DNA of 36,962 nt from Elusimicrobiota bacterium (GTDB lineage: Bacteria; Elusimicrobiota; Elusimicrobia; UBA1565; UBA9628), in assembly GCA_027451985.1 (NCBI GenBank), contig DAIDHS010000018.1, positions 15,026 to 51,987 on the forward strand. Direction: 5' to 3'. Positions 1 to 16,232 of the stretch are shown here, one piece after another. Under the pieces are notes generated by a model that did no database searches, was not told where the DNA came from, and worked only from the letters and a program-made list of their open reading frames with translations. Every line of letters starts with the position of its first letter. The stretch's first letter is position 1. The position numbers and the translations under genes are program-made.

Positions 1-566
1 AATTGAACGCCCTCTGGTACGATGGCGATGCGGCCTTTGAGGAATGGAAAATCTTCGAGCAGCAAGTTCCGCCCGAAGCGAGAAAGCGCGGTCGCTTCGC
101 GCCCGTGCAGGAGCTTTGCGTAGCCGGCGAGGGATTGGGCCGTGCGGCCCGTGATGGGGTTGCGCCAGTCGTGGAACGAGACCAGAAGAGGCAGGCCCAG
201 GGCGCGCAGACGCCGGTCCAGCCACGGCACGGCCTTGGTGTAGTCGCCGATGGCGTGGTAGTGGACGGCGTCCACCCGGCGCAGAAGGGGGCCTAGGCGC
301 GCCTCCATAGCGGCCGCGATGCTCTGCGGGCTGCGTCCCTTGTTGAGACGGACCAGCGTTCCCCAGCCAAGGTCCTCATCTTCGGCGCCGCGGATGGGCG
401 CGGCCGCGTATTGCCACAGAAACGGCGCGGCCGCGGCGACCGCATGTCCGCGCTCGGCGTAGCGGCGTCCAAGGTTCGAAAGGACGACGCTGAAGGTGGG
501 ATTGTCGAAGTCGCACTCGCAGAGCAGAAGGATTCTGCGCGGCGCGCGTGCGCCGGGTTTCATCAT
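1..566 (-). CDS. Glycosyltransferase, GT-B/family 4-like, 3' end outside the window
   Basis: The first 188 residues are present; the gene continues beyond position 1. It is a paralogue of the complete glycosyltransferase at 1449-2537. Both share an N-terminal pattern (hydrophobic strand, then CECDFDNPTF or SECSFHNPTF), a WGTL element, an IGDYT element, an SFHD element and the run around LLHGREAT and FGRNLLLEDFPFLKG. These belong to the N-terminal acceptor half of a GT-B enzyme; the sugar-nucleotide half is missing here. The ATG at 566 overlaps the TGA of the upstream hydrolase in an ATGA, so it is probably translationally coupled as the last visible gene of a three-gene operon. The substrate cannot be told. 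The first 80 bases match 1993-2072 exactly. Confidence 0.8.
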   Translation of the reverse strand, partial: MMKPGARAPRRILLLCECDFDNPTFSVVLSNLGRRYAERGHAVAAAAPFLWQYAAAPIRGAEDEDLGWGTLVRLNKGRSPQSIAAAMEARLGPLLRRVDAVHYHAIGDYTKAVPWLDRRLRALGLPLLVSFHDWRNPITGRTAQSLAGYAKLLHGREATALSRFGRNLLLEDFPFLKGRIAIVPEGVQ

Positions 567-1448: not shown

Positions 1449-2537
1449 TTATAGCAGGTCTAGATAGCGAGCCGCGGCGCTCTCCCAAGTATAGCGGGCG
1501 GCGGTTCGCTTGGCTTCACGGCCCAGCCGCCGGCGCAAAGGCGCGTCCTCTAAGAGCCGCTTCAGGGCGCGCGCGAGCGGGGCTATTTTTCCCGGCGGCA
1601 CCAGGAGTCCCGAGACCTCGTTTCGGATGAAATCCGTCGGTCCCGTGGCGCTGGCCACGACGGCCTTGCCCAAAGCCATGGCTTCGAGCGCTGCCATGCC
1701 GAAAAATTCGTGGCGCGAGGGCAGGACTACGAACTCGCTGGCCGCCATTAAGCCGAGGGTCTCGCGGTGTCCGGACTGGCCCAGGAACCGGACCTTGCCG
1801 GAACGGGCCAGCCCCAGGCGTTCGGCCAATGCGCGGGCTTGCCCGCGCGGGTCATTGCCCGCGAAGACCAGCGGCGGAGGGTTTTCCAGCGCGGCCCAGG
1901 CCATCATAAGGATATCCGGAGCCTTGTAGTAAGCCAGCCACGCGGGGCAAAGGACGAAAGGCGTTTCGGGCGCGCGGCGCGTCAAGGGCTCCAATTGAAC
2001 GCCCTCTGGTACGATGGCGATGCGGCCTTTGAGGAATGGAAAATCTTCGAGCAGCAAGTTCCGCCCGAAGCGCGAAGGCACGGTCGCTTCGCGCCCGTGC
2101 AGGAGGGACGCGTAGCCGGCCACGGATTCGGGCGTGCGGCGGATGGATGGATTGCGGTAATCGTGGAATGAAGCAAGGACAGCGGCCTTGGAGGCGCGCA
2201 GGAGACGGTCCAGCCGCAAGACGGCCTCGGTGTAGTCGCCGATGAGGTGCAGGTGAACAAAGTCCGCCTCTCGCGTAAGCGGCGCGAGTTTGGCGATATT
2301 GACGGAGGGAACGCGGCCGCCGTCGTTTCCCCAAAGGCGCATGAGCGTTCCCCAGGAAGTCCGGCGGTTTTTTGCTCCGCGGGGTTCGGACAGGGTGTAT
2401 GGCGAAAGCGGCGCGGCGACCCGCACGGAGTGTCCGCGGCCGGCGTATTCGAGAGCCAGGCTGTCCAGGACGATGCGGAACGTGGGGTTGTGAAAAGAAC
2501 ACTCGCTGATTACCAGGATCTTGCGCATGGGGGACAT
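1449..2537 (-). CDS. Glycosyltransferase, GT4-like
   Basis: A complete 362-residue GT-B enzyme. The N-terminal half has the open beta-alpha pattern of the acceptor domain. The C-terminal half has the nucleotide-sugar domain, with FLGQSGHRE, the acidic motif HEFFGMAALEAMALGK (about 280-295), then GPTDFI and GLLVPPG. This is the usual layout of family 4 glycosyltransferases, which move a sugar from a nucleotide donor with retention. It is the first gene of a leftward operon (this gene, hydrolase, second glycosyltransferase). The ATG at 2537 is preferred over the ATG at 2528 because it lies next to the AT-rich intergenic promoter region, but no strong ribosome-binding site is visible for either. 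Donor and acceptor are unknown. The 43-residue peptide at 2621 diverges from it. Confidence 0.88.
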   Translation of the reverse strand: MSPMRKILVISECSFHNPTFRIVLDSLALEYAGRGHSVRVAAPLSPYTLSEPRGAKNRRTSWGTLMRLWGNDGGRVPSVNIAKLAPLTREADFVHLHLIGDYTEAVLRLDRLLRASKAAVLASFHDYRNPSIRRTPESVAGYASLLHGREATVPSRFGRNLLLEDFPFLKGRIAIVPEGVQLEPLTRRAPETPFVLCPAWLAYYKAPDILMMAWAALENPPPLVFAGNDPRGQARALAERLGLARSGKVRFLGQSGHRETLGLMAASEFVVLPSRHEFFGMAALEAMALGKAVVASATGPTDFIRNEVSGLLVPPGKIAPLARALKRLLEDAPLRRRLGREAKRTAARYTWESAAARYLDLL

Positions 2538-2620
2538 GTTTTAGTTAAGGTTAATTTGATAAGCCCGAACTTATATATAATAAACAAGTTTGAAGTTTAT
2601 GTTCTGGAGATAAGCAAGGA
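2538..2620. promoter_or_regulatory. AT-rich divergent promoter region
   Basis: This 83-bp gap is strikingly AT-rich against its GC-rich surroundings and separates the leftward glycosyltransferase operon from the rightward small peptide. On the plus strand a perfect TATAAT is at 2576-2581, with TTGATA at 2556-2561 (spacing 14, short) or TTAATT at 2551-2556 (spacing 19, long) as possible -35 boxes. GGAG at 2606-2609 lies 11 bases before the peptide ATG. The minus strand is also A/T-rich, but I see no clean promoter there. Confidence 0.5.
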
Positions 2621-2752
2621 ATGAAGAAGAAAGACGGTGAAAAGCCGAAAAAAGGCCGCGGTGGAAAAAAGAAATACACTGTTCCTGCCTTGACTTTGGC
2701 CGGCAGCCTGCTGTCTGCGGGAGGGCTTTGGGCGGCGGTCGTCGCCCTCTAA
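2621..2752 (+). CDS. Small peptide with YxxPxLxxxG motif, candidate RiPP precursor
   Basis: This 43-codon reading frame is ATG to TAA. Residues 1-18 are highly basic (mostly Lys, Gly and Arg). Residues 19-28 read YTVPALTLAG, an exact match to YxxPxLxxxG, the leader motif known from lasso-peptide precursors and some other RiPP leaders, where it binds a recognition domain. Residues 29-43 are hydrophobic (SLLSAGG then LWAAVVAL). The conserved Thr of true lasso leaders is missing, and no lasso cyclase or protease is in the window. A Gly-Gly at 34-35 could be a cleavage site, leaving an eight-residue core; this is a guess. GGAG lies 11 bases upstream, with TATAAT further up. The radical SAM gene at 5542-8175 supports a RiPP reading. 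The alternative is a single-pass membrane microprotein, since 20-43 could span a membrane. Confidence 0.6.
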   Translation: MKKKDGEKPKKGRGGKKKYTVPALTLAGSLLSAGGLWAAVVAL

Positions 2753-2777
2753 AGTTTTGGCGCGCGGCCGGCGGCCG

Positions 2778-3341
2778 CTAGGACAGCCAATCCACGATGA
2801 CGAATTTCGCCCCCGAGGCGACTTTCTCCCCAGAGTGAGGATGCGTGATGCCGGAGGGAAAGACGACGGCCTTGCCGGGCTCCGGTTCGACGCGGACGTT
2901 TTGCCGCGGGAAGTAGGTCCGCCCGCCGTCGTAGTCCGCGTTCAGGTAACAGACCAAACTGATAATGCGCCCGCTCACCGTGGGACCTGCCCTATCGATA
3001 TGCATCATGATGTGGCCGCCCGCCTCGTAGCGCAGCATCATCGCCTGCCTGGTGGCGTAACGGAAGACGCGGTATTCCCAACACAGCATGGCGGCCGGCT
3101 TGGCTGCGGCTTCGACCGCCGAGAGGTAGCGCTTGAGAAGCCCCGGCAGGGAGCGCAGCCGCAGCTTCGAGACCCACGCGTCGTCATGGTTGACGGCTTG
3201 TACGGTGGCGTAGGGCCAGGCCAGCGCCGCGTCCTCCCAGCGCCGCCTGCGCCGGCCGATGCCGTCAAGGATGTCGCGGCACTGGGAAGGGGAAAACATC
3301 TGGAAACTGAAAATGTCCTGGGCCTCCTGCTTGATTTTCAC
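2778..3341 (-). CDS. Fe(II)/2-oxoglutarate-dependent oxygenase (prolyl-4-hydroxylase-like), copy 1
   Basis: This 187-residue protein has the double-stranded beta-helix signature of Fe(II)/2OG oxygenases. His114 and Asp116 form HID, His169 lies in THPH, and Lys179 is ten residues later, the position of the 2OG-binding basic residue in prolyl 4-hydroxylases. The conserved core NADYDGGRTYFPRQ lies between. Such enzymes hydroxylate or otherwise oxidise a C-H bond using O2 and 2OG. Copy 2 at 4104-4664 is a close paralogue with a nearly identical C-terminal third. The start is GTG, aligned with the MKIK start of copy 2, without a clear ribosome-binding site. It converges on the small peptide gene, and its start is only 11 bases from the divergent gene at 3353. 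The substrate is unknown; the small peptide is a candidate. Confidence 0.85.
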   Translation of the reverse strand: MKIKQEAQDIFSFQMFSPSQCRDILDGIGRRRRRWEDAALAWPYATVQAVNHDDAWVSKLRLRSLPGLLKRYLSAVEAAAKPAAMLCWEYRVFRYATRQAMMLRYEAGGHIMMHIDRAGPTVSGRIISLVCYLNADYDGGRTYFPRQNVRVEPEPGKAVVFPSGITHPHSGEKVASGAKFVIVDWLS

Positions 3342-3352
3342 GCGCGCGATCC

Positions 3353-4126
3353 ATGGCGGCGATGAGCAATAAGCCCGCCGTCCCGCCTCCGCCGCGCCGC
3401 TTGTTCCACTGGACCGACGCCGCCGGGCTTGAGCGCATCGCCGCCGCGGCCGCGTCCTTGCAGGGATTGGCGGGCTTGCGGGCCGCGTGCGCCGCGAAAT
3501 ACGAAGGCTCTCTTCCCCGAGCGCTGGGCGCGCCGGCCGCCCCGATTCTTTTCGGCTGGATCCACCCCGTGACGGGGATGGCGGTCAATCCGGGAGAAAT
3601 CTACGCCGGGCGCGGCGCTCCCCGGGACGCCCGGATGCTCATCGTCGACATCAGGCGCGGCCTTGCGGTCGCCGCAGTCGTGCATGACGCCGCATCCGGC
3701 CGGGTGCGCGCCAGCGTCCCCGCGCCGCCCGGCGGCGCCGATTTGGTTTATCACGAGCTGCGGCACCCCAACGGATCGTCGCTGCGCGAGTGGATCGTTC
3801 TGCGCGCGCGGGCCGTCAAGAGCCTTGCCGCGCTGCCGTCGCGCGAGCTTAAAATCTTTTTGCGTGGGGAAATGGAGAAGCTCGGAAATCCATCCTATCA
3901 ATATCCCGAGCGGCTGCTTCATGGCCGTTCCGCGAGGCTTACGCGGGGCCGCCGGCGCTTTTTTTTGGACGTCACTTCGCTCACGGCGGCGCGCCGGGCC
4001 GTCATCATCCCCGCGATCGAGCGCGTGCTTCGCTTGAGGCCCGATGACGTCCCCGCCGCGTTCAGGCATCCGCTGATTGTTGGTCCGCTCGGCATCCGCG
4101 TCTCTAGGACAGCCAGTCCACGATGA
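3353..4126 (+). CDS. Unrecognised protein with H-Y-E pattern, possible ADP-ribosyltransferase-like fold, copy 1
   Basis: I do not recognise this 257-residue family. It is paralogous to the protein at 4661-5374. Both share LFHWT near the N-terminus, LFxW-HPVTG, then a YA pair, V/IxHE and a GSSxREWxVL strand. His19, Tyr84 and Glu146 sit in the order and local settings of the H-Y-E residues of ADP-ribosyltransferase-type folds (HxT strand, Y strand, E followed by VVxNP in the paralogue). That comparison is inference from pattern only. Neither a signal peptide nor a membrane segment is visible. The ATG at 3353 or the one at 3362 could be the start. The last 23 bases overlap the 3' end of oxygenase copy 2 in convergent orientation. 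It always sits beside an oxygenase, so the two may work as a pair. Confidence 0.7.
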   Translation: MAAMSNKPAVPPPPRRLFHWTDAAGLERIAAAAASLQGLAGLRAACAAKYEGSLPRALGAPAAPILFGWIHPVTGMAVNPGEIYAGRGAPRDARMLIVDIRRGLAVAAVVHDAASGRVRASVPAPPGGADLVYHELRHPNGSSLREWIVLRARAVKSLAALPSRELKIFLRGEMEKLGNPSYQYPERLLHGRSARLTRGRRRFFLDVTSLTAARRAVIIPAIERVLRLRPDDVPAAFRHPLIVGPLGIRVSRTASPR

Positions 4127-4664
4127 CGAACTTGGTTCCCGAGGCGACTTTTTCCACGCCGTGGGGATGCGTGATGCCGGAGGGAAAGATGACGGCCTTG
4201 CCGGGCTCCGGATCGACGCGGACGTTTTGCCGCGGAAAGTAGGTCCGGCCGCCGTCGTAGTCCGCGTTCAGGTAGCAGACCAGGCTGATGATCCGGCCGC
4301 GGATGGTGCCCATGCAATCGATGTGGGGGATGAAGTGGCCTCCGGGCCCGTAGCGCAGCAGCAGCGCCTGCCGGGTGGCGAAACGGAAGACGCGGTATTC
4401 CCAACATAGCATGGCGGCCGGCCTGGCCGAGGACTCCACGGCGCGTCGGTAGGCGTCTTTAAGGGACGATACCCCTCCGAGCGGCGCTTGGTGCGCCAAA
4501 CCGTCCTGGTAATCGACGACGGGTCGCAAATCGTCGGACCATGCCAAGGGCGCGTCTCTCCAGCGCGGAGGACGTTTGGCGAGGAGCCGGAGCGCGTCCG
4601 CGCACTCGGCGGGAGAGAACATCCGGAAGCTGTAGATGTTCCGGCCCTCTTCTTTGATTTTCAT
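4104..4664 (-). CDS. Fe(II)/2-oxoglutarate-dependent oxygenase (prolyl-4-hydroxylase-like), copy 2
   Basis: This 186-residue paralogue of the enzyme at 2778-3341 has the metal triad His114, Asp116 and His168 and the 2OG-binding Lys178, with the same NADYDGGRTYFPRQ core. The ATG overlaps the TGA of the upstream H-Y-E gene (4661-5374) as ATGA, so the two are probably translated together. The N-terminal half differs more from copy 1 than the C-terminal half, which fits duplication followed by divergence in substrate contact. A degenerate third copy lies at 8209-8552. The function is oxidation of an unknown substrate, possibly the small peptide. Confidence 0.87.
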   Translation of the reverse strand: MKIKEEGRNIYSFRMFSPAECADALRLLAKRPPRWRDAPLAWSDDLRPVVDYQDGLAHQAPLGGVSSLKDAYRRAVESSARPAAMLCWEYRVFRFATRQALLLRYGPGGHFIPHIDCMGTIRGRIISLVCYLNADYDGGRTYFPRQNVRVDPEPGKAVIFPSGITHPHGVEKVASGTKFVIVDWLS

Positions 4665-5374
4665 CTGCGCCCGGCGGGCGAGAACTCGGGGAAAGCGGTC
4701 CTCAGCTCTAAGGGGATTCGCCGCGGAGAGAGCCGCGCGACCGCGCGGAGGGCGGGAAGGACGATTTTACCCCGCAGGCCTGGAGAAGTCACGCTTAAAA
4801 AAGCCGACTGGCGGAGCCCCGGAAATTTGCTGACGGCGTGCGCCGCGCGCGGCGGGTAGTCGTAGCGCGGATCGGCGAGCCGCGAGAGCTCTTGCTTGAA
4901 GAAACGCCGCAAAAAACGAGCGTCCGCCGTGAAGCTCTCGACGCATGCGGGATTGAGGACGACCCATTCGCGCACGGAGGAGCCGTCGTCGTAGCTGATT
5001 TCGTGAAAAATCAAATCCGCGCCGCGTGGGATGCGCGGGGCGAAGCGCCGCGGCTTGGCGGGAAGGTTCTTCCCGTCGTGGTCCCGAAGAGCGCACACGC
5101 GCGCGCCTCTCTTGATTTTGAGGGTGAGCAGCCTGGAGTCGCCTGCACTTTCCGCAGCATAGACGACTTTGGGTCCCGAGGCGATTCCGGTTACGGGATG
5201 AGACCACGCGAAGAGGGCTGTCATGGAGCGCAAATCCGGATGGAAACGGTAAAGCGCCGATTCGGGCGGTATCTTTTTGAGCATGAGCCCACCGCTCTTT
5301 TTCGCGTGGCGCGCGAAATGCATTAATTTTTCCGCCGTGGTCCAGTGGAACAAAGTCGCTGGCGCGTTCGCCAT
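4661..5374 (-). CDS. Unrecognised protein with H-Y-E pattern, possible ADP-ribosyltransferase-like fold, copy 2
   Basis: This is a 237-residue paralogue of the protein at 3353-4126. From the ATG at 5374, His10 lies in FHWTTAEKL, Tyr72 in VVYAAE, and Glu136 in SSVREWVVLNP. The last strand pattern (E, then VVxNP) is what many ADP-ribosyltransferase folds show around the catalytic Glu, but overall similarity to a named family is not something I can show. A TTG at 5410 would add 12 residues; the ATG is preferred because the paralogues align better from there. It is coupled to oxygenase copy 2 by an ATGA overlap. The remnant at 8584-8650 shows that a third copy once stood upstream of another oxygenase in the same order, so the pairing is a repeated arrangement. 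Confidence 0.7.
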   Translation of the reverse strand: MANAPATLFHWTTAEKLMHFARHAKKSGGLMLKKIPPESALYRFHPDLRSMTALFAWSHPVTGIASGPKVVYAAESAGDSRLLTLKIKRGARVCALRDHDGKNLPAKPRRFAPRIPRGADLIFHEISYDDGSSVREWVVLNPACVESFTADARFLRRFFKQELSRLADPRYDYPPRAAHAVSKFPGLRQSAFLSVTSPGLRGKIVLPALRAVARLSPRRIPLELRTAFPEFSPAGRR

Positions 5375-5430
5375 GGCAAATAGCTTATCGGAAAATTCCG
5401 TTGATTTCAACGCGAAAAAGCTCTAGCCGT

Positions 5431-5485
5431 CCGTGCGGTCGTCTGCCGCCAAACCTCGGACAAGAGGCATCGCGTCTTGTGGCAT
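5431..5485 (+). pseudogene. Gene fragment of the oxygenase at 8681-9304
   Basis: These 55 bases differ at only two positions from 8953-9007, which encode residues about 92-109 of the intact oxygenase. In the same frame the fragment reads RAVVCRQTSDKRHRVLWHGD and then runs to a stop, so it ends just past the first metal ligand (HGD instead of HTD). The rest of the gene cannot be found. The 131-bp gap 5411-5541 otherwise holds no gene I can support. Confidence 0.75.
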
Positions 5486-5541
5486 GGCGACCTGCTTTCC
5501 TCCGGAGGGCTTTGAGCCTCCGTCATCGTGCCGCCAAGACT

Positions 5542-8175
5542 CTAGGCTTGGGGTTGCGGCTTCAGCCGCCTCGTTCGGTGCGGGCCCTCGCTTCTAAGCG
5601 GCGGCATCAAACGCAGTCCCAGGTGCCTTAATCGGAGCATTCGCTCGAAAAGAATCCGCTGCCGGCCGGATATGTTCGGCGCGCGCGGGGCCAGGGTCAA
5701 GAAATCCCGGTTCTTTCGGATGATCCAGCGTTTCTGCAATAAGTGGCCGAGCGCTTTTCGTACCGCGCCCGGATTCCAATTCTTATCGCGGCCGCGGCAT
5801 GCGCTTGCCACCGCCGAAAACGATTTTATCGTTTCGCAAAAATGGAAAATGAAAGCCTCGATTCCATGCAGCCTGGTTTCCCGCATTTCCGGAGCTTTTC
5901 CGATAGCCAGCGGCCGCGAATCGTAAATATCCACGAATCCGTCGCCGTTGTAATAGGCGAAAATGTTCCGCTCGTGGATGTTTCTCCAAAACTCCAGGCC
6001 GCGCCGAAGTTCGTCCGGGAGCGCGGCGTCCGAACTGGCCGGGCGCGGGGGCGGCAGGTGCGTCAGGGCCAGGATGTCCCCGGCCGCGATAGGATCGCCG
6101 GAGGCGGCGGACGCGCCGGACACGGCGGACGCGCCGGACACGGCCGCCCGTTTGAGGGCTTGGACGCTTTGCAGGCTCATGTTTTCGGCGCTGACGCGCG
6201 CTTCGGGCCGCTCTGGATCGCCAAGAGATTGCGGCGAACGCCGGGAAGGATGATTGCGGCGCGCGGCCAACATTTGTTCGAAGCGCGCCGTCTGGGCCGG
6301 CGTCAGTTTGGAGACGGGGAGCGCCAAATTGAGATAAAGTCCGTCCTCGCACAGCAGCCAGCGCCGCTCGACCAAGGATTGCAGGGTTTTGACGACGTCA
6401 TGCTCGCTCCAGCGGGAGTTCCTCGCCCGGCAGAGCGCCGCGATTTCCCGCGCTCCTAAAAGCGCGTCGGCGGCCTTAAACGCGGCGGCCTCCAGGCCTT
6501 CTAAGATGCACTCGCGCAATTCGGGCGTTCCACCGGTGCGCAGCGGCCGCGAGTCGTAAAGCCGCACAGACTCGCCGTCGCCGTCGCAGGCGAAAAAGTT
6601 CTCCGGCCAAATGGCCCTCCAAAACTCGGCCGTCTTTACCAAGGCTTCGGTGTGCGGCCCGAATATTCTCGCACGGTCCTCGGCGGCGAATTCAAACACG
6701 TAGGCGATATCGCGAAGGACGAACCGCGGCTCTGGGTAAAGGAAGCGGTAGCATTCATGCGGGGCGGGCCGCTTTAACCCGAAATCTTTCCAGTTCTCAT
6801 AATAAGGGCTGAAGCGGTCGATATGAATTTCTCCTTGATGCTGCGGCGGCGGCAGGTGAGTCAAGGAAAGCACGGTTTGAATCAGCTGCGGATAATCATC
6901 CTGATTTTCCCCGGGAAAACCATAAATCATATTCCAAAGCAAATAAACTGCGTTCAAAGCGGCAAGCTTCATGGTTTGAACGTTTTGAATCGTGCGGACA
7001 CCCTTGCGGAGAAGTTTCAGCGCGGGCGTGCTGAAGGTCTCGATGCCGGGCTGCCAAGACAGCACTCCGGCTTCCGCGAGGTCCGCCGCCTGTCCGGGCT
7101 TGATGTTCGATTTGAACTCGCAATAGATGTCCCAATCCGCCGCGAGATTTTTGCGCTGCCGCGCGAGCTCGGGCAGCAAGGTTTTAAAGTAGTCTTGGGA
7201 GAGAATTAAATCGCAGAACATCAGGCGCTGCGCCTGATGGCGCCGATGAAGAGCCGTAATTTCCCGCAGGACCAATTCGGCCTTCTTGGCCCGGAACGCC
7301 ATCGCCTGCCCGGGCAGGCCGCAAAACACGCAGTGCTGCTTCTGGCCCCACCAGCACCCGCGGGAGGCTTCCAGGGTCACGATGGGGGTGAAATGCGCGC
7401 CGGCGCCGGAAAGTTCGAGCTGCTCGAAATAGTCGTCGTGATCCGGCGCCGGCAGGAGGTTCATGTCAATGACGGGCATATGCGCCGGATCTCGCGGCAG
7501 AACTTTCCCATTTTCGCGCATGGAGACCCTGGGCGCCGGAGCGTGGGGTTTGCCGCTCTCGATGTTGCGCGCCAGGGCCAAAAGCGCCTGCTCTCCCTCT
7601 CCGTCGACGACGTAATCTATCCAGTCGCAGCCGCGCAAGGCCGCCAAGCCCATGTCGCCCTCGACATTGGCGCCGCCGAACGCGATTTTGCTTTTGGGGA
7701 AGCGGCCCTTGATGAGCTTCGCCATGAGCAGGCTGGCCGAGTGGTTCCAAAGGCAGGAGGAAAATCCGATGAGGCCGTAGCAGCCCCAGTCGATGCCGTC
7801 AAGGCATTCGGATAGAAAGCTCGGAATCTCACGCTCCACGACGGCGGAAAATTCTTGCGGAGAAACCTTGGCGGAGCGAAGAAAATCCTGCATCCCCGCG
7901 ACGCGAACGATGTCGTCGATGCCTTGGGGGAGCGGCGCTTGCGGCCCTGAGCCGGGGCCGAAAAGATGATAGGCGAAGAGCCATTCAGGCCAGGGCAGGG
8001 CGCCGGTGCGGCTGAGGCGGACGCCTAGGCCGCCCAGGCGGCGGACTAGGCGCATGTAGAGATGGTGGCAGTCCGCTTCGATTCCGTTGTGGCGCAGCCA
8101 GCTTTTGAGGCAGGCCAGGGAGAGGGGCGCTATCTCAATGTCCGACCACGGCATCATGACTAGGGCGACTTTCAT
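5542..8175 (-). CDS. Radical SAM protein of the RiPP maturation type 1 family, with duplicated C-terminal domain
   Basis: This is an 877-residue enzyme. Residues 1-200 resemble the cobalamin-binding-like N-terminal domain (ALVMMPW at 4-10, EWLFAYHLFG, GFSS, FGGANVEGDMGL, VVDGEGE). The radical SAM domain follows, with SRGCWWGQKQHCVFCGLPG giving the CX7CX2C cluster ligands Cys274, Cys282 and Cys285. QPGIETFS, LLRKG, WNMIYGFPGE and DRFSPYY complete the pattern of 'ribosomal peptide maturation radical SAM protein 1' (TIGR03975-like). These enzymes modify precursor peptides with SAM-derived radicals. It is longer than the roughly 600-650 residues I expect: a C-terminal unit (LTHLPPP, EFWR, YDSRPL, a winged-helix-like W...RW stretch) occurs at about 437-640 and again at 703-852, joined by a VSGASA repeat. 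The remnant oxygenase and H-Y-E genes lie upstream on the same strand. Confidence 0.88.
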   Translation of the reverse strand: MKVALVMMPWSDIEIAPLSLACLKSWLRHNGIEADCHHLYMRLVRRLGGLGVRLSRTGALPWPEWLFAYHLFGPGSGPQAPLPQGIDDIVRVAGMQDFLRSAKVSPQEFSAVVEREIPSFLSECLDGIDWGCYGLIGFSSCLWNHSASLLMAKLIKGRFPKSKIAFGGANVEGDMGLAALRGCDWIDYVVDGEGEQALLALARNIESGKPHAPAPRVSMRENGKVLPRDPAHMPVIDMNLLPAPDHDDYFEQLELSGAGAHFTPIVTLEASRGCWWGQKQHCVFCGLPGQAMAFRAKKAELVLREITALHRRHQAQRLMFCDLILSQDYFKTLLPELARQRKNLAADWDIYCEFKSNIKPGQAADLAEAGVLSWQPGIETFSTPALKLLRKGVRTIQNVQTMKLAALNAVYLLWNMIYGFPGENQDDYPQLIQTVLSLTHLPPPQHQGEIHIDRFSPYYENWKDFGLKRPAPHECYRFLYPEPRFVLRDIAYVFEFAAEDRARIFGPHTEALVKTAEFWRAIWPENFFACDGDGESVRLYDSRPLRTGGTPELRECILEGLEAAAFKAADALLGAREIAALCRARNSRWSEHDVVKTLQSLVERRWLLCEDGLYLNLALPVSKLTPAQTARFEQMLAARRNHPSRRSPQSLGDPERPEARVSAENMSLQSVQALKRAAVSGASAVSGASAASGDPIAAGDILALTHLPPPRPASSDAALPDELRRGLEFWRNIHERNIFAYYNGDGFVDIYDSRPLAIGKAPEMRETRLHGIEAFIFHFCETIKSFSAVASACRGRDKNWNPGAVRKALGHLLQKRWIIRKNRDFLTLAPRAPNISGRQRILFERMLRLRHLGLRLMPPLRSEGPHRTRRLKPQPQA
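6105..6140. repeat. 18-bp tandem repeat, two copies, inside the radical SAM gene
   Basis: The 18-bp unit at 6105-6122 is repeated exactly at 6123-6140. On the minus strand it encodes two VSGASA units (about residues 679-690) in the flexible linker between the two C-terminal domains. It looks like a recent slippage event in a low-constraint linker. Confidence 0.85.
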
Positions 8176-8208
8176 GGGCGGAGGCAGTATGATATAAAAG
8201 CTCTCGGC

Positions 8209-8552
8209 TTACGAGAGCCAATCCACGATGGCGAGCTTGGTCCCCGAGGCGACTTTTTCCGCGGGGAATAGGTCCGACCGTCCTCGTAGCGCAGCAGCAT
8301 CGCGGCCGGTTTGGACGCGGATTCGACGGCGCGGCGATGGGCCCGCGCCAGGAAGGGAACGCCGCGTAGAACGGCCTGGTTCGCCAGGCCGTCATCATGA
8401 TCGTACACGGGCTTCAAATCGTCGGACTATCCCAGGGGCGAGTCTTTCCAGCGGGGAGGGCGCTTGGCGATTCGCGCCAGCGCATCCGCGCATTCCCGGG
8501 GAGAAAACATCAGGAAGCTGATAATGCTTTGGCCTTCTTCTTGTATTGTCAT
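8209..8552 (-). pseudogene. Degenerate third copy of the small Fe(II)/2OG oxygenase
   Basis: Starting at the ATG at 8552, the first 41 codons match oxygenase copy 2 closely (EEGQSIISF, MFSPRECADAL, KRPPRWKD). Codon 42, Trp in the intact gene, is TAG (8427-8429). The match continues to KPAAML and then jumps over the segment with the HxD ligands: only LRYE, GRTY and, in a shifted frame, EKVASGTKLAIVDWLS remain before TAA. Two internal deletions, one frame change and a nonsense codon remove the metal site. It lies directly upstream of the radical SAM gene on the same strand, which suggests an ancestral operon of H-Y-E gene, oxygenase and radical SAM gene. Confidence 0.88.
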
Positions 8553-8583
8553 GGAGGTTTTGCCCCGGCCGGACCTATTATAT

Positions 8584-8650
8584 TTAACTTGATTTGGATG
8601 CGCGTCGCACGAAATGGTTTAATTTTTCCGCTTTGTCCACCGCAACGGGT
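8584..8650 (-). pseudogene. Remnant of a third H-Y-E family gene
   Basis: On the minus strand this stretch matches the start of the gene at 4661-5374. One frame gives RWTK (for HWTT) and, after a one-base shift, AEKLNHFVRRASKSS follows (for AEKLMHFARHAKKSG) and then stops. It lies just upstream of the degenerate oxygenase at 8209-8552, in the same order as the intact pair. The remaining ~200 codons are gone. The start of the neighbouring oxygenase is therefore unlikely to be the TTG at 8594, which would read through this remnant. Confidence 0.7.
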
Positions 8651-8680
8651 GTTTCAAAGGAAGTTCCTCGCGTCACGGGT

Positions 8681-9304
8681 ATGCGATTGCCTTCCGGCCG
8701 CCGCATCGAGCGCATGCGAAGGGGCTACGCGCGGCAGAGCTACGCGCGCTGGCCTGGGTTTTTGGACGCGCGGCTTTTAAAGCGCATCCTGCCCAGAATT
8801 CGGGCGGCAGCCTTTCGCGAGCGGTACTATGCGAAGAGCTACCGCGGCATTTGCAGGCACTGGAGCCGTGCGCTGAGCCTGCTGCTAGATCAGCCGCCGC
8901 TGCATGATTGCGTACAGAGGCTTTCCGGCTGCCCATACCCTATTCGCGCCATCCGTGCGGTCGTCTACCGCCAAACCTCGGACAAGAGGCATCGAGTCTT
9001 GTGGCATACGGATCCGCCGACGCTCAATGGCCGCTGGGCCGAGTGCACCTTGTCCGTCAACCTCGGCGGCTCTTATGAAGGCGGCGAACTTGAGATTCGC
9101 GCGCCGGGCGGCAAGAGGCTTATGGCGCGCATCGCCAACAAGAAATCGGGCGACGCGGTTTTGTTCCGCCATACGCTGGTCCACCGCGGCGCCCCGGTCG
9201 TGGGCCCGCGTCCCAAGCTCGTGCTCTTCGTCTGGTTTTCTCTCAGACCTTTGCACCGGGCTGGCAAGCTGAGCCTGCGGGCGCGCAAAGGTGTCCGGGC
9301 ATGA
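8681..9304 (+). CDS. Fe(II)/2-oxoglutarate-dependent oxygenase, divergent type
   Basis: From the ATG at 8681 the protein has 207 residues, with N-terminal half basic and Tyr-rich. The C-terminal beta-helix carries His109 and Asp111 (WHTD), NLGG-YEGGELEIR, and His168 (LVHRG) followed by Arg177 and Lys179 as candidate 2OG-binding residues. It is only distantly related to copies 1 and 2. The frame is open back to a TTG at 8594, but that part overlaps the remnant of another gene; an ATG at 8714 is a further alternative, and no good ribosome-binding site decides. Its TGA overlaps the ATG of the methyltransferase, so the two are probably coupled. A 55-bp fragment of a second copy lies at 5431-5485. 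Confidence 0.8.
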   Translation: MRLPSGRRIERMRRGYARQSYARWPGFLDARLLKRILPRIRAAAFRERYYAKSYRGICRHWSRALSLLLDQPPLHDCVQRLSGCPYPIRAIRAVVYRQTSDKRHRVLWHTDPPTLNGRWAECTLSVNLGGSYEGGELEIRAPGGKRLMARIANKKSGDAVLFRHTLVHRGAPVVGPRPKLVLFVWFSLRPLHRAGKLSLRARKGVRA

Positions 9305-10137
9305 GCGCCGGGCGCGGCGGCTACGCGGGAAAAAAGAAAGGCTACATCCACGGCTATTCCAAGGCCGAGCAAGAGCGGCTCTCGGCGCAAAGCAAGTTTC
9401 TGGAGTCCATGGTGTTCGCGGGCGTGGATTTCTCGCAAACCGCGCGCGTCTTGGAAATCGGCTGCGGCGTGGGCGCGCAGACGCAGATTCTTTTGCGGCG
9501 CTTCCCGAAGATTTTCGTCCAAGGCGTCGACGTCTCGCCCGCGCAGATTTCGCGCGCGCGGGAAAATCTGGCCCGGCCCATCGCGCAAGGCCGCGCGGAC
9601 GTCCGCGTGGCCGACGGCGAGAGGCTGCCATTCGCGGACGCCTCCTTCGACGGGGCTTTTTTCTGCTGGGTGCTGGAGCACCTGCAAAAGCCCCAGGCGG
9701 TGCTCAAGGAACTGCGTCGGGTCTTGAAGCCCGGCGCCCGGATTTTCGGCATCGAGGTGCAAAACGAAAGCCTCTACCTCTACCCCGAGTGCCCCGCGGT
9801 CGCGGCGTACTGGAAAGAGTACAACGACGCGCAGCGCGCTGTGGGCGGCGATCCGTGCGTGGGCGCCAAGACCGGCAACCTTCTGCGCCAGGCGGGCTTC
9901 AAGGACGTGCAAGTCTCCGCGTGGACCAGGCACTACGATCAGCGCGACCGCGCGGCCTATAAGCGCATGATCGACTACTGGCAGCGCCTGCTTTTAAGCG
10001 TCGCGCCGCAGCTCCTGGCCGCCGGACGCGTGGACCAGAAGCTCATCCGCGCGGTCAAGCGCGAGCACGCGCGCCTGAAGTCCCACCCCCAGGGCGTGTT
10101 CTTCTACACGCCGCTGAAGTTCTCCGCCAGCAGATAA
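9301..10137 (+). CDS. Class I SAM-dependent methyltransferase
   Basis: This 278-residue enzyme has motif I VLEIGCGVGAQT at about 44-55, an acidic loop GVDVSPAQI, motif II around ADGERLPFADASFDG, FCWVLEHL and then LRRVLKPGARIFG. This is the Rossmann-type methyltransferase pattern of the UbiE/Methyltransf_11 group. The C-terminal 100 residues, which would set the substrate, are not recognised. The ATG at 9301 overlaps the oxygenase stop (ATGA), and AAAGG lies about eight bases upstream inside that gene. It could methylate the same product as the oxygenase; this is inference from coupling. Inverted repeats follow its stop directly. Confidence 0.87.
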   Translation: MSAGRGGYAGKKKGYIHGYSKAEQERLSAQSKFLESMVFAGVDFSQTARVLEIGCGVGAQTQILLRRFPKIFVQGVDVSPAQISRARENLARPIAQGRADVRVADGERLPFADASFDGAFFCWVLEHLQKPQAVLKELRRVLKPGARIFGIEVQNESLYLYPECPAVAAYWKEYNDAQRAVGGDPCVGAKTGNLLRQAGFKDVQVSAWTRHYDQRDRAAYKRMIDYWQRLLLSVAPQLLAAGRVDQKLIRAVKREHARLKSHPQGVFFYTPLKFSASR

Positions 10138-10253
10138 GGCCCGGGAATCCCGTTCATCGGGGACGCTCGGGATTGACCCTCGCTCGGGCTCCGGCCCGGC
10201 CGCAGGGCCTATGCCCGGGCCTACGCACGCCCCTCGAACGGGATTTCCGGGCC
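10138..10253. terminator. Long imperfect hairpin after the methyltransferase gene
   Basis: The arms 10138-10155 and 10236-10253 pair over 18 bp with one mismatch, and the left arm begins right at the methyltransferase stop. The right arm is followed by a short TTTAT. The 80-bp interior contains further GC-rich self-complementary stretches (GGCCC/GGGCC blocks). It can act as a terminator, but it is much larger than an ordinary one. Confidence 0.55.
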
Positions 10254-10260
10254 TTTATCC

Positions 10261-10383
10261 GCAGGCGCGGAGCGTCCCCTCAGAGAGGCGTCTGAAGGTT
10301 CGGCTTATGCATGCAGCCGAACCGGAAGTCGAGCGAGCCTTCAAACGGCGAGCGTCCTCGATGGGGGGACGCTCCGCGCCTGC
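10261..10383. repeat. Nested inverted repeat, 123 bp
   Basis: Perfect 19-bp outer arms at 10261-10279 and 10365-10383 enclose a second pair (about 10290-10299 with 10339-10348, one mismatch) and an inner perfect hairpin (GGTTCGGCT at 10298-10306 with AGCCGAACC). The element begins three bases after the stop of the leftward gene ending at 10387. It may terminate that gene; the nesting also resembles small palindromic repeat elements. Between it and the hairpin at 10138-10253 there is no gene. Confidence 0.6.
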
Positions 10384-10386
10384 TTA

Positions 10387-11073
10387 CTACTGGGAGAGCG
10401 CCTGGCCGATTTCGCCCATGCGCTTTTGCAGCTCCTTGAGCCGCCGCGCGGCCGCGGCCTCCTGGAGCTTGTGGACGTGGGCGGCGAAGGCGGCCGTAAT
10501 CGGGTCCTTCATCGACTTGACGGCCGCGGTGAAGGCTTGGCTGATCTCGCTGCCGGAGACCGCCACTTGCTGGTAGGTGGCTGCCGCGTCGCTCATGGGG
10601 TTCGCGATGGCCTTGTAGGCCGCCACGTCGATGAGGTCGGGCTGGGAATAAGGCGAGGCGTCCTTGGGTTGGGGCACAACCACGAAGCCCTGCTGGGCGA
10701 AGTGGAAGAACTCCGCAGGCACTTGGATGCTGTGGCCGTTGTTGTCGAGTTCGATGATGGCGCCGTCGCCGGGGGTGGCGTTGGCGTTCATCAGGTAGGC
10801 GTTTAGGTCGCAGTCCCAGTCGATGGGCGAAAGATAGGGCAGGTTGTAGCCGATGGCCATGGTGATGCTTTGGTCCCCGGCGATGTCGCGGGCCAGGGCG
10901 TCCTTGAACGCCGCGACCAGGCGCTCCTGGCGGCCGGCTTCGGGAGCCTTCGTTTGGGCTTGCGCCTGCGCGGCGGTGGCCACGGCCTGCAGACGGGCGG
11001 CCGGATTGGCGCAGGCCAGCGCGGGGGCGAGCAATAAAGAGAGTCCTGCGGCGAAACGGGCGGTTCGGGTTAT
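10387..11073 (-). CDS. Secreted protein of unknown function, apparently with an ATA start
   Basis: I do not recognise the family. In frame from 11073 the protein begins (M/I)TRTARFAAGLSLLLAPALACA, an ordinary signal peptide with cleavage after ACA, then about 205 residues. These include an Ala/Gln-rich stretch, an IDWDCDL element, a VPAEFFHFAQQGF element and a charged, possibly coiled C-terminus (KLQEAAAARRLKELQKRMGE). The frame opens after a stop at 11092-11094 and has no ATG, GTG or TTG before the TTG at 11034. Starting there would destroy the signal peptide. GGGAGGAG lies 12-13 bases before the ATA at 11073, and an ACG at 11076 is another candidate. The protein probably acts outside the cytoplasm. 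Confidence 0.65.
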   Translation of the reverse strand: MTRTARFAAGLSLLLAPALACANPAARLQAVATAAQAQAQTKAPEAGRQERLVAAFKDALARDIAGDQSITMAIGYNLPYLSPIDWDCDLNAYLMNANATPGDGAIIELDNNGHSIQVPAEFFHFAQQGFVVVPQPKDASPYSQPDLIDVAAYKAIANPMSDAAATYQQVAVSGSEISQAFTAAVKSMKDPITAAFAAHVHKLQEAAAARRLKELQKRMGEIGQALSQ

Positions 11074-11224
11074 CGTGGGCGTTCTCCTCCCTTAATATGA
11101 ATATGCGGCGTAAAACGACACCAATATTATAGCGGGACCGCTCCGGGAGCCTTATAGGCCGAAAGTCCCGCGTGACCCGAGTTTTTTGGCCCTCGGCCCC
11201 GGTCACGGCGCGGGAATGGCCGCG

Positions 11225-12463
11225 CTATGGGCGGCCGTCGAAGGACAGGGAAAGCGCGAGCGAGTGGAGGCTTGGGCTTTTGCCCAGGCGCACGGGGCGG
11301 TTGAACGCCGCCGCTTGGGCCGCGGTCTCGGCGCTTAGGAACTGCGCGAGGCCGTCGGTGAGTTGGGCGAAGTGCGCGGCGTTGTTGGTGGGCGTATCCG
11401 GGCGGGTGACGTCCGCGTGGGCGATGCCGTCTTGTTCGGGATAGAGGATGAACCGCGCGCGCGGGCCGGAGAAATTTTGCATGAATTGAACGACCGCCTG
11501 CGGGTTGACGGTCGTGTCCGAGTCGGACTCGACCGTAAAGACGCCCACGCCGTGGTCCTTGATGTCCGCGATGATGCGCGGCGAGACGCGCACGACGGAT
11601 TTGTAGTCGATTAAAGAGCCGATGAGCGCGGGGGTGATGTCGGGCAGGCCGATGGTCACGGGCAGGCGCGGCAGGCGGCCTTGGGCGGAGTTCTCCTCGA
11701 TTTGCGTCTCCAGCTGGCAGACGCCGTTCAAGGCCAGGCGGGCGTAGCGGCCTTGGTAGTAGTCCCGGTAAGGCCCGGGCTTGTCCGCGTCCTTGGCCCA
11801 CGGCGCGGTCGAGGCCCAGGGGTGCACGGCCTCGAAAGCCGCCAAGTCGAGCGGCGAGAGGCTGCAGACGACCGGCGCCTTGCGGTCGTGAATCTGGATG
11901 GCGGGGGAGAACAGGAAGAGATCCTGCAAGTCGAGCGGATGGGCGCCCGCGTAATTCCGGCGCACGAGGTTGAGCGTCAGGGCGCCGCCGGTGGAAAATC
12001 CCGCGATGGACACGCGCCGGCCGATGGCCGCGGCGACTTGCAGGCCCTCGGCGGCCGCCTTCTGCCACTGCGAGAGCTTGACGTGGAGCAGGTCCTTGGC
12101 CGCGCGTCCATGGCCGGGCAGCAGGATGGCCACCACATTGTAGCCGTAGGAATAAAAAATGTCCGCCAGCGTCTTCATCGAATAGGGCGAGTCGCCCAGG
12201 CCGTGGATCATAAGAATCGAGCGCGCGGCTTTTTGCCCGGGCTGGTGGATCATCAGAAAGGGCAGGTTCTCGCCGTAGCAGAGGTGCGTGGGGCTCTTGG
12301 CCGCGCAGGCGGACGGAGACGGCGCGAGCGCCGCGATTTGGGCTTGGAAGGCTGACACGGTTTGGGCGTCGAAGGCTTGGTCCGCGAAAATCGGGGCGGC
12401 CGCGCAGACCAGGGCCGCGGCCAGGCAGGTCGCGCCGCGCCGGAGGTTGATTGGGTTTTTCAT
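11225..12463 (-). CDS. Secreted alpha/beta-hydrolase (serine esterase/lipase-like)
   Basis: This 412-residue protein begins with a signal peptide (basic start, then CLAAALVCAAAPIFA, cleavage near 27). The hydrolase domain has IHGLGDSP (about 87-94), the nucleophile elbow GFSTGG with Ser157, an acid in the SDSDTTVNP region and a His in DGIAHADVTRP. It is a paralogue of the cytoplasmic-looking enzyme at 563-1441 with a longer interior and C-terminus. It would hydrolyse an ester in the periplasm or outside. ATG at 12463 is preceded by AAGGGAC and, 12 bases upstream, by a perfect TATAAT on the minus strand. The stop is followed by the leftward gene ending at 10387 after about 150 bases. Confidence 0.87.
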   Translation of the reverse strand: MKNPINLRRGATCLAAALVCAAAPIFADQAFDAQTVSAFQAQIAALAPSPSACAAKSPTHLCYGENLPFLMIHQPGQKAARSILMIHGLGDSPYSMKTLADIFYSYGYNVVAILLPGHGRAAKDLLHVKLSQWQKAAAEGLQVAAAIGRRVSIAGFSTGGALTLNLVRRNYAGAHPLDLQDLFLFSPAIQIHDRKAPVVCSLSPLDLAAFEAVHPWASTAPWAKDADKPGPYRDYYQGRYARLALNGVCQLETQIEENSAQGRLPRLPVTIGLPDITPALIGSLIDYKSVVRVSPRIIADIKDHGVGVFTVESDSDTTVNPQAVVQFMQNFSGPRARFILYPEQDGIAHADVTRPDTPTNNAAHFAQLTDGLAQFLSAETAAQAAAFNRPVRLGKSPSLHSLALSLSFDGRP

Positions 12464-12474
12464 TCGGGTCCCTT

Positions 12475-12480
12475 ATTATA
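12475..12480 (-). promoter_or_regulatory. -10 element of the secreted hydrolase
   Basis: A perfect TATAAT on the minus strand lies 12 bases before the ATG at 12463, so the 5' leader must be only a few bases long. I see no good -35 box. The rest of the divergent gap to 12597 shows a TTGACG at 12562-12567 that could serve the peroxidase gene, without a convincing -10. Confidence 0.4.
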
Positions 12481-12596
12481 AGGAAGACGACGCCTAGGCG
12501 CTTGAGGCTTCGGGCCTTCTGTGGCCTGGGAGAAAAGACCCAGGGCACGGAGCGTTCCCCCTTGACGAAACGTTGCAGATACCCCACACTAGGGGC

Positions 12597-13694
12597 ATGA
12601 AAATGAAAATTTCGCAGTTTTCTAGGGACAAGGCCGCGCGCGGAGCGCTGGCCGCCGCGGCGGTGGTCACGGCCTTGGCCGCGGTCATCGCGATTATCGG
12701 AGCCTCGTCCGCGCGCGCGCAGTTCGGCGATGACTTCGGCGAATCAGGCTCGAGCTATCCCTATCACGTGCCGCTGGGGTTGAACCCTCCGCCGGTGCCG
12801 GCCGACAACGCGATCACCGACGCCAAGGTCGCGCTGGGCAAAGACCTCTATTTCGACAAGCGGCTTTCCCAAAACGATACGGTCAGCTGCGAGACCTGCC
12901 ACAACCCCATGATGGGCTGGACCGATCACAAGCCCGTCTCGACCGGCATCCACGGCCAGCACGGCACGCGGAATGCGCCTACGGTGCTTAACTCGGCCTA
13001 CAACCAGCAGCAATTCTGGGACGGTCGTGCGCCGAGTCTGGAGAAGCAAATCGAGGGGCCGGTCGCCAACCCCGTGGAGATGGGCTTTAGCCTGGCGGGC
13101 GCGGCCAAGCGCATCGGCGGCATCAAGGGCTACGCGCCGCTTTTTCAGGCCGCCTTCGGCAGCCCCAAGGTCACTTTTGACCGCATTGAGAAGGCCATCG
13201 CGAGCTTTGAGCGCACGGTTCTGACCGGCAACTCTCCTTATGATCGCTACGTCGCGGGCGACACCAAGGCGTTAAGCCCCCAGGCCGCCGCGGGCATGGC
13301 TCTTTTTTTTGGCAAGGCCAACTGCGACGCCTGCCACGCCGGCAAAAACTTTTCCGACGGCGACTACCACAACATCGGCGTGGGGATGAACTCCAAGCAT
13401 CCCGATTGGGGCCGCTACCTCGTCACGAAAGTAGAAGCCGACCGCGGCAAGTTCAAGACTCCGACGCTGCGCGACTTGCCCGAGACCTACCCTTACATGC
13501 ACGACGGTTCGGTCAAGACATTGGCCGAGGTCATCAAGTTCTACAATCAGGGCGGCGAGAAGAACAAGTGGCTTGATCCACAGATCCGCCCGCTTCACTT
13601 GGACGACGCGGAGCAGGCCGAACTGGTCGCCTTCCTTGACGCCTTAAACGGCACGCAGGATCAAGTCGCCCCGCCCAAGACCCTGCCGCAGTAG
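12597..13694 (+). CDS. Di-heme cytochrome c peroxidase (CcpA/MauG family)
   Basis: This 365-residue protein has an N-terminal hydrophobic segment (residues 17-42, signal or anchor) and two c-type heme sites, CETCH (Cys98, Cys101, His102) and CDACH (Cys243, Cys246, His247). Family marks between them include GKDLYFDKRLS, RNAPTVLNSAY, FWDGRAPSLE and AIASFERT. FKTPTLRDL and YMHDGS-KTLAEVI follow. Periplasmic enzymes of this family reduce H2O2 with electrons from small cytochromes; MauG relatives oxidise proteins instead. The ATG at 12597 is close behind AGGGG; the ATG at 12603 has better spacing and would shorten the protein by two residues. The length is normal. No cytochrome partner is nearby. 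Confidence 0.92.
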   Translation: MKMKISQFSRDKAARGALAAAAVVTALAAVIAIIGASSARAQFGDDFGESGSSYPYHVPLGLNPPPVPADNAITDAKVALGKDLYFDKRLSQNDTVSCETCHNPMMGWTDHKPVSTGIHGQHGTRNAPTVLNSAYNQQQFWDGRAPSLEKQIEGPVANPVEMGFSLAGAAKRIGGIKGYAPLFQAAFGSPKVTFDRIEKAIASFERTVLTGNSPYDRYVAGDTKALSPQAAAGMALFFGKANCDACHAGKNFSDGDYHNIGVGMNSKHPDWGRYLVTKVEADRGKFKTPTLRDLPETYPYMHDGSVKTLAEVIKFYNQGGEKNKWLDPQIRPLHLDDAEQAELVAFLDALNGTQDQVAPPKTLPQ

Positions 13695-15089: not shown

Positions 15090-16232
15090 GTGATGCGCGG
15101 GCGAGGACGCTTGGCCGCCGCGGCCCTCGCGGCGTGCGGGCTCGCCCTCGCGGCCCCGGCCGCGCCGCTTCGGGCCCGAGAATCTCCCGCGCTTACGCGC
15201 AAAAGCGCGGCGGCTCTCAAGCATGCGCGCGCCATCGCCGCTCGGCTCGATCGGCGCTTGCTCTTGACGGACTCCTTCACGCGCGGCGGCGCAGGCGCCC
15301 CGTTTAAGGGGCTCCTGGGCCGGGCCGGCCTTCAGCCGCTCGAAACCGCGGCGCCTAATCCACCCGCGCCCGCGTTCAAAGAGATACTGCCGCCGCTTTT
15401 GCCCGAGCCGGCTTTGGCGCGCTGCCGGTTTTGGTCCGTCGATTGCCAAAATCCCACGGACGCGAGGTACGAGACCATCGCGGGCCCGGCTTACTCGGCC
15501 AATCCGGACGGCTCCACGAACATCTCAGCGGAGGACGTCGTCCAGGGCGACTTGGACGACTGCTACTTTATGGCCTCTTTGGCCGCCGTCGCCGCCGCGC
15601 ATCCAGACGTCATCCGGCGCATGATCCGGCGGAACGCTGACGGCACGTTTTCCGTGACCTTCTACAAGCGGACTCCACCGTGGGAATTCTGGAAGCCCGA
15701 ATACGAGAAGACGACCGTGCGGGTCGACAATCGCTTTCCGGTCGAACCGAACGATTATGGTCCGCCCACGCCCCTCTACGCCCAGCAGGGACTGGGGGGG
15801 ATTTGGCCCATGGTGGCGGAGAAAGCCTACGCCGCCTACAAGGGTTCCTACGGCGCTATCGACGGCATCCTGGCCGACGGCTTCGCGTCCTCCATCCTTG
15901 AGCTCATCACCGGCAAGGACAGCGCGGTTTACCCCGCGATGATCATCCCGGCGCGGGCGCTGGAAGGCTGGCTTAAGGCCGGCGCCGTGGTGGTCGTGAG
16001 CACTAAAATCGACTTGTCGCCCTGGCTCGGCTCCTGGGCCAAGGCGCTGCCCGGACCCCTCTACCAAAACGGCACGCTGGTGCCGACGCATGATTACTGG
16101 GTCAAGTCCGTGAACGTGAAAAAGGGCACCGTGACCTTGGGGAATCCCTGGGGGTGGGACGATTTTACGACGATCACCATGGGTGAGTTCCGCGCGGAGC
16201 TCAGCATCCTTTATGTCAACCCGGTCCGTTAG
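15090..16232 (+). CDS. Secreted calpain-like (C2 family) cysteine protease
   Basis: A signal peptide (AAAALAACGLALAAPAAPLRA) is followed by a calpain catalytic domain of about 250 residues. VVQGDLDDCYFMASLAAVA holds the nucleophile Cys158. VRVDNRFPV, GGIWPMVAEKAYA and KGSYGAIDGI are the mid-domain marks, THDYWVKSV holds His334 and LGNPWGW holds Asn352. Calpain-type proteases are less common in bacteria than in eukaryotes, and bacterial ones usually occur as secreted or surface proteins without calcium-binding EF hands; none is seen here. GTG at 15090 or ATG at 15093 could start the protein; no strong ribosome-binding site is visible, so it may depend on read-through from ahcY seven bases upstream. 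The lipoprotein gene overlaps its end. Confidence 0.88.
   Translation: MMRGRGRLAAAALAACGLALAAPAAPLRARESPALTRKSAAALKHARAIAARLDRRLLLTDSFTRGGAGAPFKGLLGRAGLQPLETAAPNPPAPAFKEILPPLLPEPALARCRFWSVDCQNPTDARYETIAGPAYSANPDGSTNISAEDVVQGDLDDCYFMASLAAVAAAHPDVIRRMIRRNADGTFSVTFYKRTPPWEFWKPEYEKTTVRVDNRFPVEPNDYGPPTPLYAQQGLGGIWPMVAEKAYAAYKGSYGAIDGILADGFASSILELITGKDSAVYPAMIIPARALEGWLKAGAVVVVSTKIDLSPWLGSWAKALPGPLYQNGTLVPTHDYWVKSVNVKKGTVTLGNPWGWDDFTTITMGEFRAELSILYVNPVR

Follow-up and report, generated by a model that had tools for sequence, protein, structure and literature searches.

We analysed a 36,962-nucleotide stretch of an Elusimicrobiota genome (hereafter the window; bases 15026–51987 of contig DAIDHS010000018.1, or C18, in the 2.41 Mb assembly GCA_027451985.1) that carries repeated pairs of a 2-oxoglutarate (2OG) oxygenase gene and a gene for a protein with conserved His, Tyr and Glu residues (hereafter HYE). 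Our results suggest that these 2OG–HYE pairs probably belong to a strain-specific island for tailoring of the kind seen in ribosomally synthesized and post-translationally modified peptides (RiPPs), in which HYE would be an additional enzyme peculiar to the lineage. Besides the pairs, the island contains a B12-binding radical S-adenosylmethionine (SAM) C-methyltransferase gene, a family 4 glycosyltransferase (GT4) gene and a short open reading frame (ORF) that resembles a RiPP precursor (Table 1). These surroundings were missed by the first-pass annotation of the window, and they say more than its guess at the fold of HYE.

A strain-specific island with a RiPP-type radical-SAM enzyme

The island was delimited by comparison with one other genome of the genus (G001), where an abhydrolase gene is followed by a methyltransferase gene with only 69 bp separating them (contig C95, locus L071). 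Their counterparts in the window match at 88.7% (593–1456) and 92.5% (9340–10144), respectively, and enclose the GT4 gene, the radical-SAM gene and every 2OG and HYE gene. The junction in G001 therefore indicates that positions 1457–9339 form an island that is absent at that site in the sister genome, i.e. the island is strain-specific.

The radical-SAM enzyme scores 549.6 bits against TIGR03975 (RiPP maturation radical SAM C-methyltransferase), for which the curated NCBIfam cut-off is 281.85. It carries a Cx7Cx2C motif (CWWGQKQHCVFC, residue 274), which has been reported for PoyB/PoyC and the bottromycin RiPP C-methyltransferases (PMC5682303), and its C-terminal domain occurs twice (the additional copy at approximately residues 720–850, 37% identical to residues 510–640). 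TIGR03975 proteins above the cut-off are present in seven of 334 genomes of the phylum, with 11 places listed when up to three candidates were scored per genome. Relatives of the island GT4 gene were found by tblastn at five of the ten other TIGR03975 loci, four of them below E 1e-18.

The association of the oxygenases with this enzyme family extends to a second genus. A profile of the two paired oxygenases (2OG1 and 2OG2) matches only three of the 334 genomes at E ≤ 1e-10 (i.e. the own genome, G007 and, partially, G045). The only other genome with a full-length oxygenase of this type is G007, and there the gene (42% identity) adjoins a TIGR03975 gene, starting ∼60 bp from it in divergent orientation. 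No TIGR03975 gene lies within the 3.4 kb of sequence examined around the G045 match. Near another TIGR03975 gene of G007 there is an ORF distantly similar to the third oxygenase of the island, 2OG3 (29.7%, E 3.7e-7; no Pfam match at 1e-3), and a TIGR03975 locus of G007 also encodes an α-ketoglutarate (aKG)-HExxH-type peptide beta-hydroxylase (L050:10333–11535; TIGR04267, 40.5 against a cut-off of 40 bits), whose gene adjoins further B12 radical-SAM genes. A 2OG oxygenase together with a B12 radical-SAM C-methyltransferase is described as a known RiPP combination (i.e. PoyI with PoyB/PoyC and EreI with EreB, for polytheonamide and pythonamide; PMC9505594).

Candidate precursor peptides

Between the GT4 and 2OG1 genes lies a Lys-rich ORF of 43 amino acids (MKKKDGEKPKKGRGGKKKYTVPALTLAGSLLSAGGLWAAVVAL). 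Within it is YxxPxLxxxG, which lasso peptides have as their leader motif (PMC6856326); the more general pattern [Y/W]xxPx[L/V/I/A/F/Y] is reported to be recognised by discrete lasso RiPP recognition elements (RREs) (PMC13381572). A motif scan returned Lys/Arg-rich ORFs of 35–44 amino acids at three other TIGR03975 loci (L048, L051 and L052), and a hidden Markov model (HMM) of these four peptides retrieved a fifth at L046, between GT2 and GT4 genes (E 0.042); the best match to this HMM in a control set of 1750 short ORFs from other loci had an E-value of 0.9. Peptides with [YW]xxPx[LI] are thus present at five of the 11 TIGR03975 places listed, and in four cases the distance to a GT4 gene is no more than ∼120 bp (the start of the L046 GT4 gene is not fixed). 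All five carry the lasso leader motif, four of them having been found by a related motif. NCBIfam matches were obtained for three of the five, always to families of lasso-peptide precursors and always below the cut-off (for L046, rhodolasso at E 1.1e-4; otherwise lasso_cyano at E 0.1 and 0.3).

Three further ORFs were kept out of this count: a regex match at L047:1382–1582 that is not Lys-rich, a 110-residue ORF at L051:13362–13694 that was judged to be a shadow frame, and an ORF at L047:11980–12201 that contains VKPHLTFLG and has weak E-values (0.64 and 2.3). The last of these stands directly before another radical-SAM-looking gene (L047:10987–12201 for both).

Taken together, we infer a pathway with the 43-residue peptide as its substrate. 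The peptide would be made with a Lys-rich leader in which [Y/W]xxPx[L/I] serves as the motif for RRE binding. Its C-terminal part, which is hydrophobic, would be C-methylated by the B12 radical-SAM enzyme; the 2OG oxygenases would hydroxylate the peptide; GT4 may glycosylate it; and HYE would modify this product in an additional way. If so, the island would represent a precursor–enzyme set in which B12 radical-SAM C-methylation, 2OG hydroxylation and a glycosyltransferase are coupled with a leader of the lasso type, and candidate substrates would be available for five of the 11 TIGR03975 places listed in the phylum.

The 2OG–HYE pairs and their duplication

The first-pass annotation described two intact 2OG–HYE pairs and one decayed pair. 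The intact pairs are borne out with respect to families, open frames and adjacency. All three oxygenases exceed the PF13640 cut-off of 27 bits; 2OG1 and 2OG2 are 64% identical and both contain HID and HPH, in agreement with the HxD...H metal ligands of PF13640, and 2OG3 carries HTD and a distal His. The two HYE proteins align over 226 residues and share FHWT, HPVTG, YA, ADLxxHE and GSSxREW[VI]VL, so that the residues named earlier (HWT, YA, HE and GSSxREWxVL) are indeed identical in both; the probable start of HYE2 is ATG 5374, within an ORF spanning 4661–5410. NG86 estimates of dN/dS (0.74/1.62 for the HYE copies and 0.26/0.67 for the 2OG copies) indicate that both genes are coding sequences under constraint.

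The organization of the pairs differs. Pair 2 is operon-like, with the stop of HYE2 overlapping the start of 2OG2 by four bases (4661–4664). HYE1 and 2OG1 are arranged head-to-head on opposite strands with 11 bp between their starts, which rules out an operon for pair 1, and the 3′ ends of HYE1 and 2OG2 overlap by 23 bp. The decayed pair is confirmed on its oxygenase side: codons 1–86 are kept at 66% identity, followed by codons 144–186, with an in-frame TAG. Of its HYE partner there is only a scrap of ∼48 bp (8600–8646 against 5304–5351, 77% DNA identity; 10 of 15 amino acids at 8631–8587), located upstream of the broken oxygenase as expected. Scraps of 2OG3 and, abutting it, of a precursor-like sequence adjoin HYE2. 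The recurrence of 2OG–HYE reflects a single unit that was duplicated and shuffled in place, with no independent association; since the copies are paralogous duplications within one genome, the pairs do not count as independent recurrences.

A role in toxin–antitoxin systems or defence was considered for the pairs and rejected: HYE has no PADLOC match and the oxygenases match only the CRISPR-associated '2OG' model, which we take to reflect the general 2OG domain.

Table 1. Features of the island in window coordinates, with precursor-like ORFs at other TIGR03975 loci in the last row
Feature	Position	Strand	Basis
Island containing all 2OG, HYE and radical-SAM parts	1457–9339		gap relative to same-genus G001
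GT4 glycosyltransferase	1449–2537	−	PF00534, 92.8 bits
Candidate RiPP precursor, 43 aa, YxxPxLxxxG	2621–2752	+	ATG start, GGAG upstream
2OG1, 2OG-Fe(II) oxygenase, HxD and HPH conserved	2778–3341	−	PF13640, 56 bits; alignments
HYE1, orphan protein in the orientation opposite to pair 2	3353–4126	+	39% identity to HYE2, E 6.5e-34
2OG2, 2OG-Fe(II) oxygenase	4104–4664	−	PF13640, 60.8 bits
HYE2 orphan protein, extendable to TTG 5410	4661–5374	−	similarity to HYE1
Scrap of 2OG3	5426–5485	+	95% DNA identity to 8948–9007
Scrap like the 3′ part of the precursor, abutting the 2OG3 scrap	5486–5528	+	74% to 2702–2744, E 0.017 off-diagonal (weak)
B12-binding radical-SAM C-methyltransferase, C-terminal domain duplicated	5542–8175	−	TIGR03975, 549.6 bits; Cx7Cx2C
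Decayed 2OG, in-frame TAG, middle gone	8210–8552	−	codons 1–86 at 66% identity, then 144–186
Scrap of the HYE N-terminal part	8587–8646	−	77% over 48 nt; 10/15 aa
2OG3, distant 2OG-like oxygenase, possible TTG start 8594	8681–9304	+	PF13640, 30.8 bits
Precursor-like ORFs elsewhere	L046:6571–6693; L048:2830–2937; L051:3900–4034; L052:14675–14800		

Around the island, positions 10145–12543 of the window likewise have no counterpart at the G001 site. A broken GT4 copy (59% amino acid identity to the island gene) lies to the left of the abhydrolase gene, at window positions 3–539 and just left of the window. Nearby genes encode a MauG/MbnH-like di-haem enzyme (12573–13694) and a calpain-type Peptidase_C2 protease (15090–16232). 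Scans for promoters, terminators and Rfam families added nothing.

HYE as an orphan family

HYE appears to be a soluble protein of ∼240 amino acids that forms an orphan family without convincing relatives. It could be assigned to no family in Pfam, NCBIfam, PHROGs or PADLOC, and no PDB sequence match was meaningful. An HYE profile searched against 340 genomes of the phylum at E ≤ 0.01 matched five, i.e. the own genome and four weak matches (E 0.003–0.008). We take these four to be spurious: at the one inspected (L004) the other strand carries a strong ORF, and two of the other three (L005–L007) contain stops. A search of 57 relatives found no HYE either, and HYE is absent from the ten other TIGR03975 loci. 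A tblastn search of phages returned no relative; among plasmids there was no match in P0001, and the three in P0002 (E 0.9) were rejected. Short exact peptide patterns gave 78 and 36 matches in genome contigs, none of them confirmed, and no relative in viral contigs; such patterns would miss distant HYE relatives in other phyla. Looking for the pair in other genomes, as the first-pass annotation had proposed, recovered HYE only from its own genome across the phylum genomes, genome contigs, phages, viral contigs and plasmids.

The first-pass annotation further proposed that the conserved residues of HYE are those expected around the catalytic site of ADP-ribosyltransferase-like folds. The H-Y-[EDQ] clade of these enzymes is described by the motifs Hx[ST], Tyr and, in an E-Y-[VI]-[VI]-type context, Glu, with Y-F/L-A/S/T as the Tyr motif of its human members (PMC7955679). 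The motif positions are H22-W-T, Y84-A and E148-W-V-V in HYE2 (numbered from TTG 5410) and H19, Y84 and E146 in HYE1. In both proteins HWT agrees with Hx[ST] and EW[VI]V agrees with a Glu before aromatic-[VI]-[VI], and the order is right; the strict YFA/YLS-type pattern fails, HYE having only YAA or YAG at the Tyr. If YA alone is accepted as the Tyr motif, a relaxation chosen only after the HYE sequences had been seen, both HYE proteins contain the ordered set; it turns up in 10 and 33 of 20,000 shuffled sequences and in two of 287 background ORFs, both of which (in stretches L009 and L019) are HYE2 itself.

Scanning HYE with hmmscan at E ≤ 10 returned no Pfam family, DarT (PF14487), RNA 2′-phosphotransferase (PF01885) and PARP (PF00644) included, and a whole-genome search found none of the DarT, KptA and PARP Pfam families in the own genome. 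Comparison of HYE with DarT and KptA by hhalign was negative, as was that of DarT with KptA from these shallow sets; a shuffle-based pairwise test of HYE was negative, and DarT against KptA or PARP mostly failed in it too. Because these positive controls failed, the hhalign and pairwise negatives carry no weight. High pairwise scorers at L047, L051 and L012 were dropped as an unrelated protein and low-complexity alignments. AlphaFold models from a two-sequence HYE alignment were unusable, with a pLDDT (predicted local distance difference test) of 35.5, or 39.9 after trimming; the absence of Foldseek matches to the trimmed model (0/334 at E ≤ 0.001) is meaningless at that pLDDT.

That HYE is an NAD-using enzyme of the ADP-ribosyltransferase fold acting with the oxygenase on a shared target is a tentative idea, and on the doubtful side. 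The ordered Hx[ST] and E[YFW][VI][VI] motifs in both paralogues, the identity of the His, Tyr and Glu between the two copies and the rarity of the loosened motif set speak for it, and the divergent Tyr motif, the lack of any family or PDB match and the lack of a usable model speak against it, as do, in principle, the underpowered alignment tests. The idea concerns HYE alone and is compatible with a RiPP-type island. The larger combination, in which HYE would found a new H-Y-E ADP-ribosyltransferase-fold family and together with the 2OG and B12 radical-SAM enzymes make a methylated, hydroxylated and ADP-ribosylated (or otherwise NAD-modified) RiPP from a peptide with a lasso-type leader, is improbable. 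In the portions of the open-access literature consulted, no paper was found that combines RiPPs, C-methyltransferases or 2OG oxygenases with ADP-ribosyltransferases.

Weighing the function of the island

Several observations count against a RiPP-type island. No peptide of the kind described was found at six of the 11 TIGR03975 places listed, with wider flanks included for several. The peptide motif was chosen after the window peptide had been seen, and as a plain regex it hits six short ORFs out of 2302, where shuffles give 1.85. Nor was an RRE, a leader peptidase or a transporter identified in the island. The tie of HYE to the pathway rests on one genome, because HYE is absent from the ten other loci. 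In G007, GT2, epimerase and UbiA genes stand beside the TIGR03975 loci, and such genes would also suit the tailoring of glycans or lipids.

These neighbours keep a cell-surface function alive as a rival: GT4 would build a glycan or lipid, the radical-SAM enzyme would C-methylate and the oxygenases hydroxylate its sugar or lipid carbons, and the short ORF would be incidental. The GT4 genes at several TIGR03975 loci and the places without a peptide fit this account, which we nevertheless consider unlikely, as peptides with a known RRE-binding motif stand beside four of the GT4 genes and the radical-SAM enzyme has the Cx7Cx2C motif of RiPP C-methyltransferases. Alternatively, the HYE–2OG copies could be a recently shuffled and largely non-functional array in a decaying locus. 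The inversion of HYE1 with its 11 bp between divergent starts, the broken oxygenase, the scraps at 5426–5528 and 8587–8646 and the absence of the island from G001 are what such decay might leave behind. However, both HYE and both 2OG frames are intact with dN/dS below 1 and the oxygenases have kept their metal ligands, which makes this account very unlikely. Tailoring of a peptide remains our preferred reading, with HYE as an orphan family that carries a suggestive catalytic motif.

Comparison with known systems

The window oxygenases belong to the same PF13640 family as the cyanophage 2OG proteins of PHROG 61 and have the same metal ligands; they differ in sequence, with only 24–36% identity to the phage homologues listed. 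With the H-Y-[EDQ] ADP-ribosyltransferases (PARP and others), HYE shares the succession of HxT, Tyr-Ala and E-W-[VI]-V; it differs in its Tyr motif, and profile and structure support for the likeness is lacking.

Lasso clusters are defined by a B2 protease and an asparagine-synthetase-like cyclase. A Pfam scan of ten window proteins revealed neither, and the island is therefore not assigned to the lasso clusters. What it shares with lasso/LPP-type RiPPs, whose leaders contain [Y/W]xxPx[L/V/I], is a short precursor-like ORF that is rich in Lys and carries the motif for RRE binding; within NCBIfam, the peptides match lasso precursor families only. By contrast, among the proteins scanned, radical-SAM and 2OG enzymes take the place of the cyclase and protease.

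Matches to TIGR03793, for NHLP leader peptides of the kind found in proteusin clusters, do occur in the own genome, on contig C14, with none on C18. At locus L078 (C14:12000–31000) three tandem NHLP-leader-like matches (∼8756–9627) lie near a LanM-like gene (DUF4135 and LANC_like), a GNAT gene and a gene for a pentameric ligand-gated ion channel (Neur_chan_LBD). They were rejected as substrates of the island because they adjoin the LanM-like gene. With the TIGR03975/proteusin clusters (e.g. those for polytheonamide and pythonamide), the island has in common a B12 radical-SAM C-methyltransferase with Cx7Cx2C, a 2OG-Fe(II) hydroxylase and a SAM methyltransferase next door. It differs from them in that it has no NHLP leader peptide, contains GT4 and HYE, and encodes a candidate leader of the lasso type.

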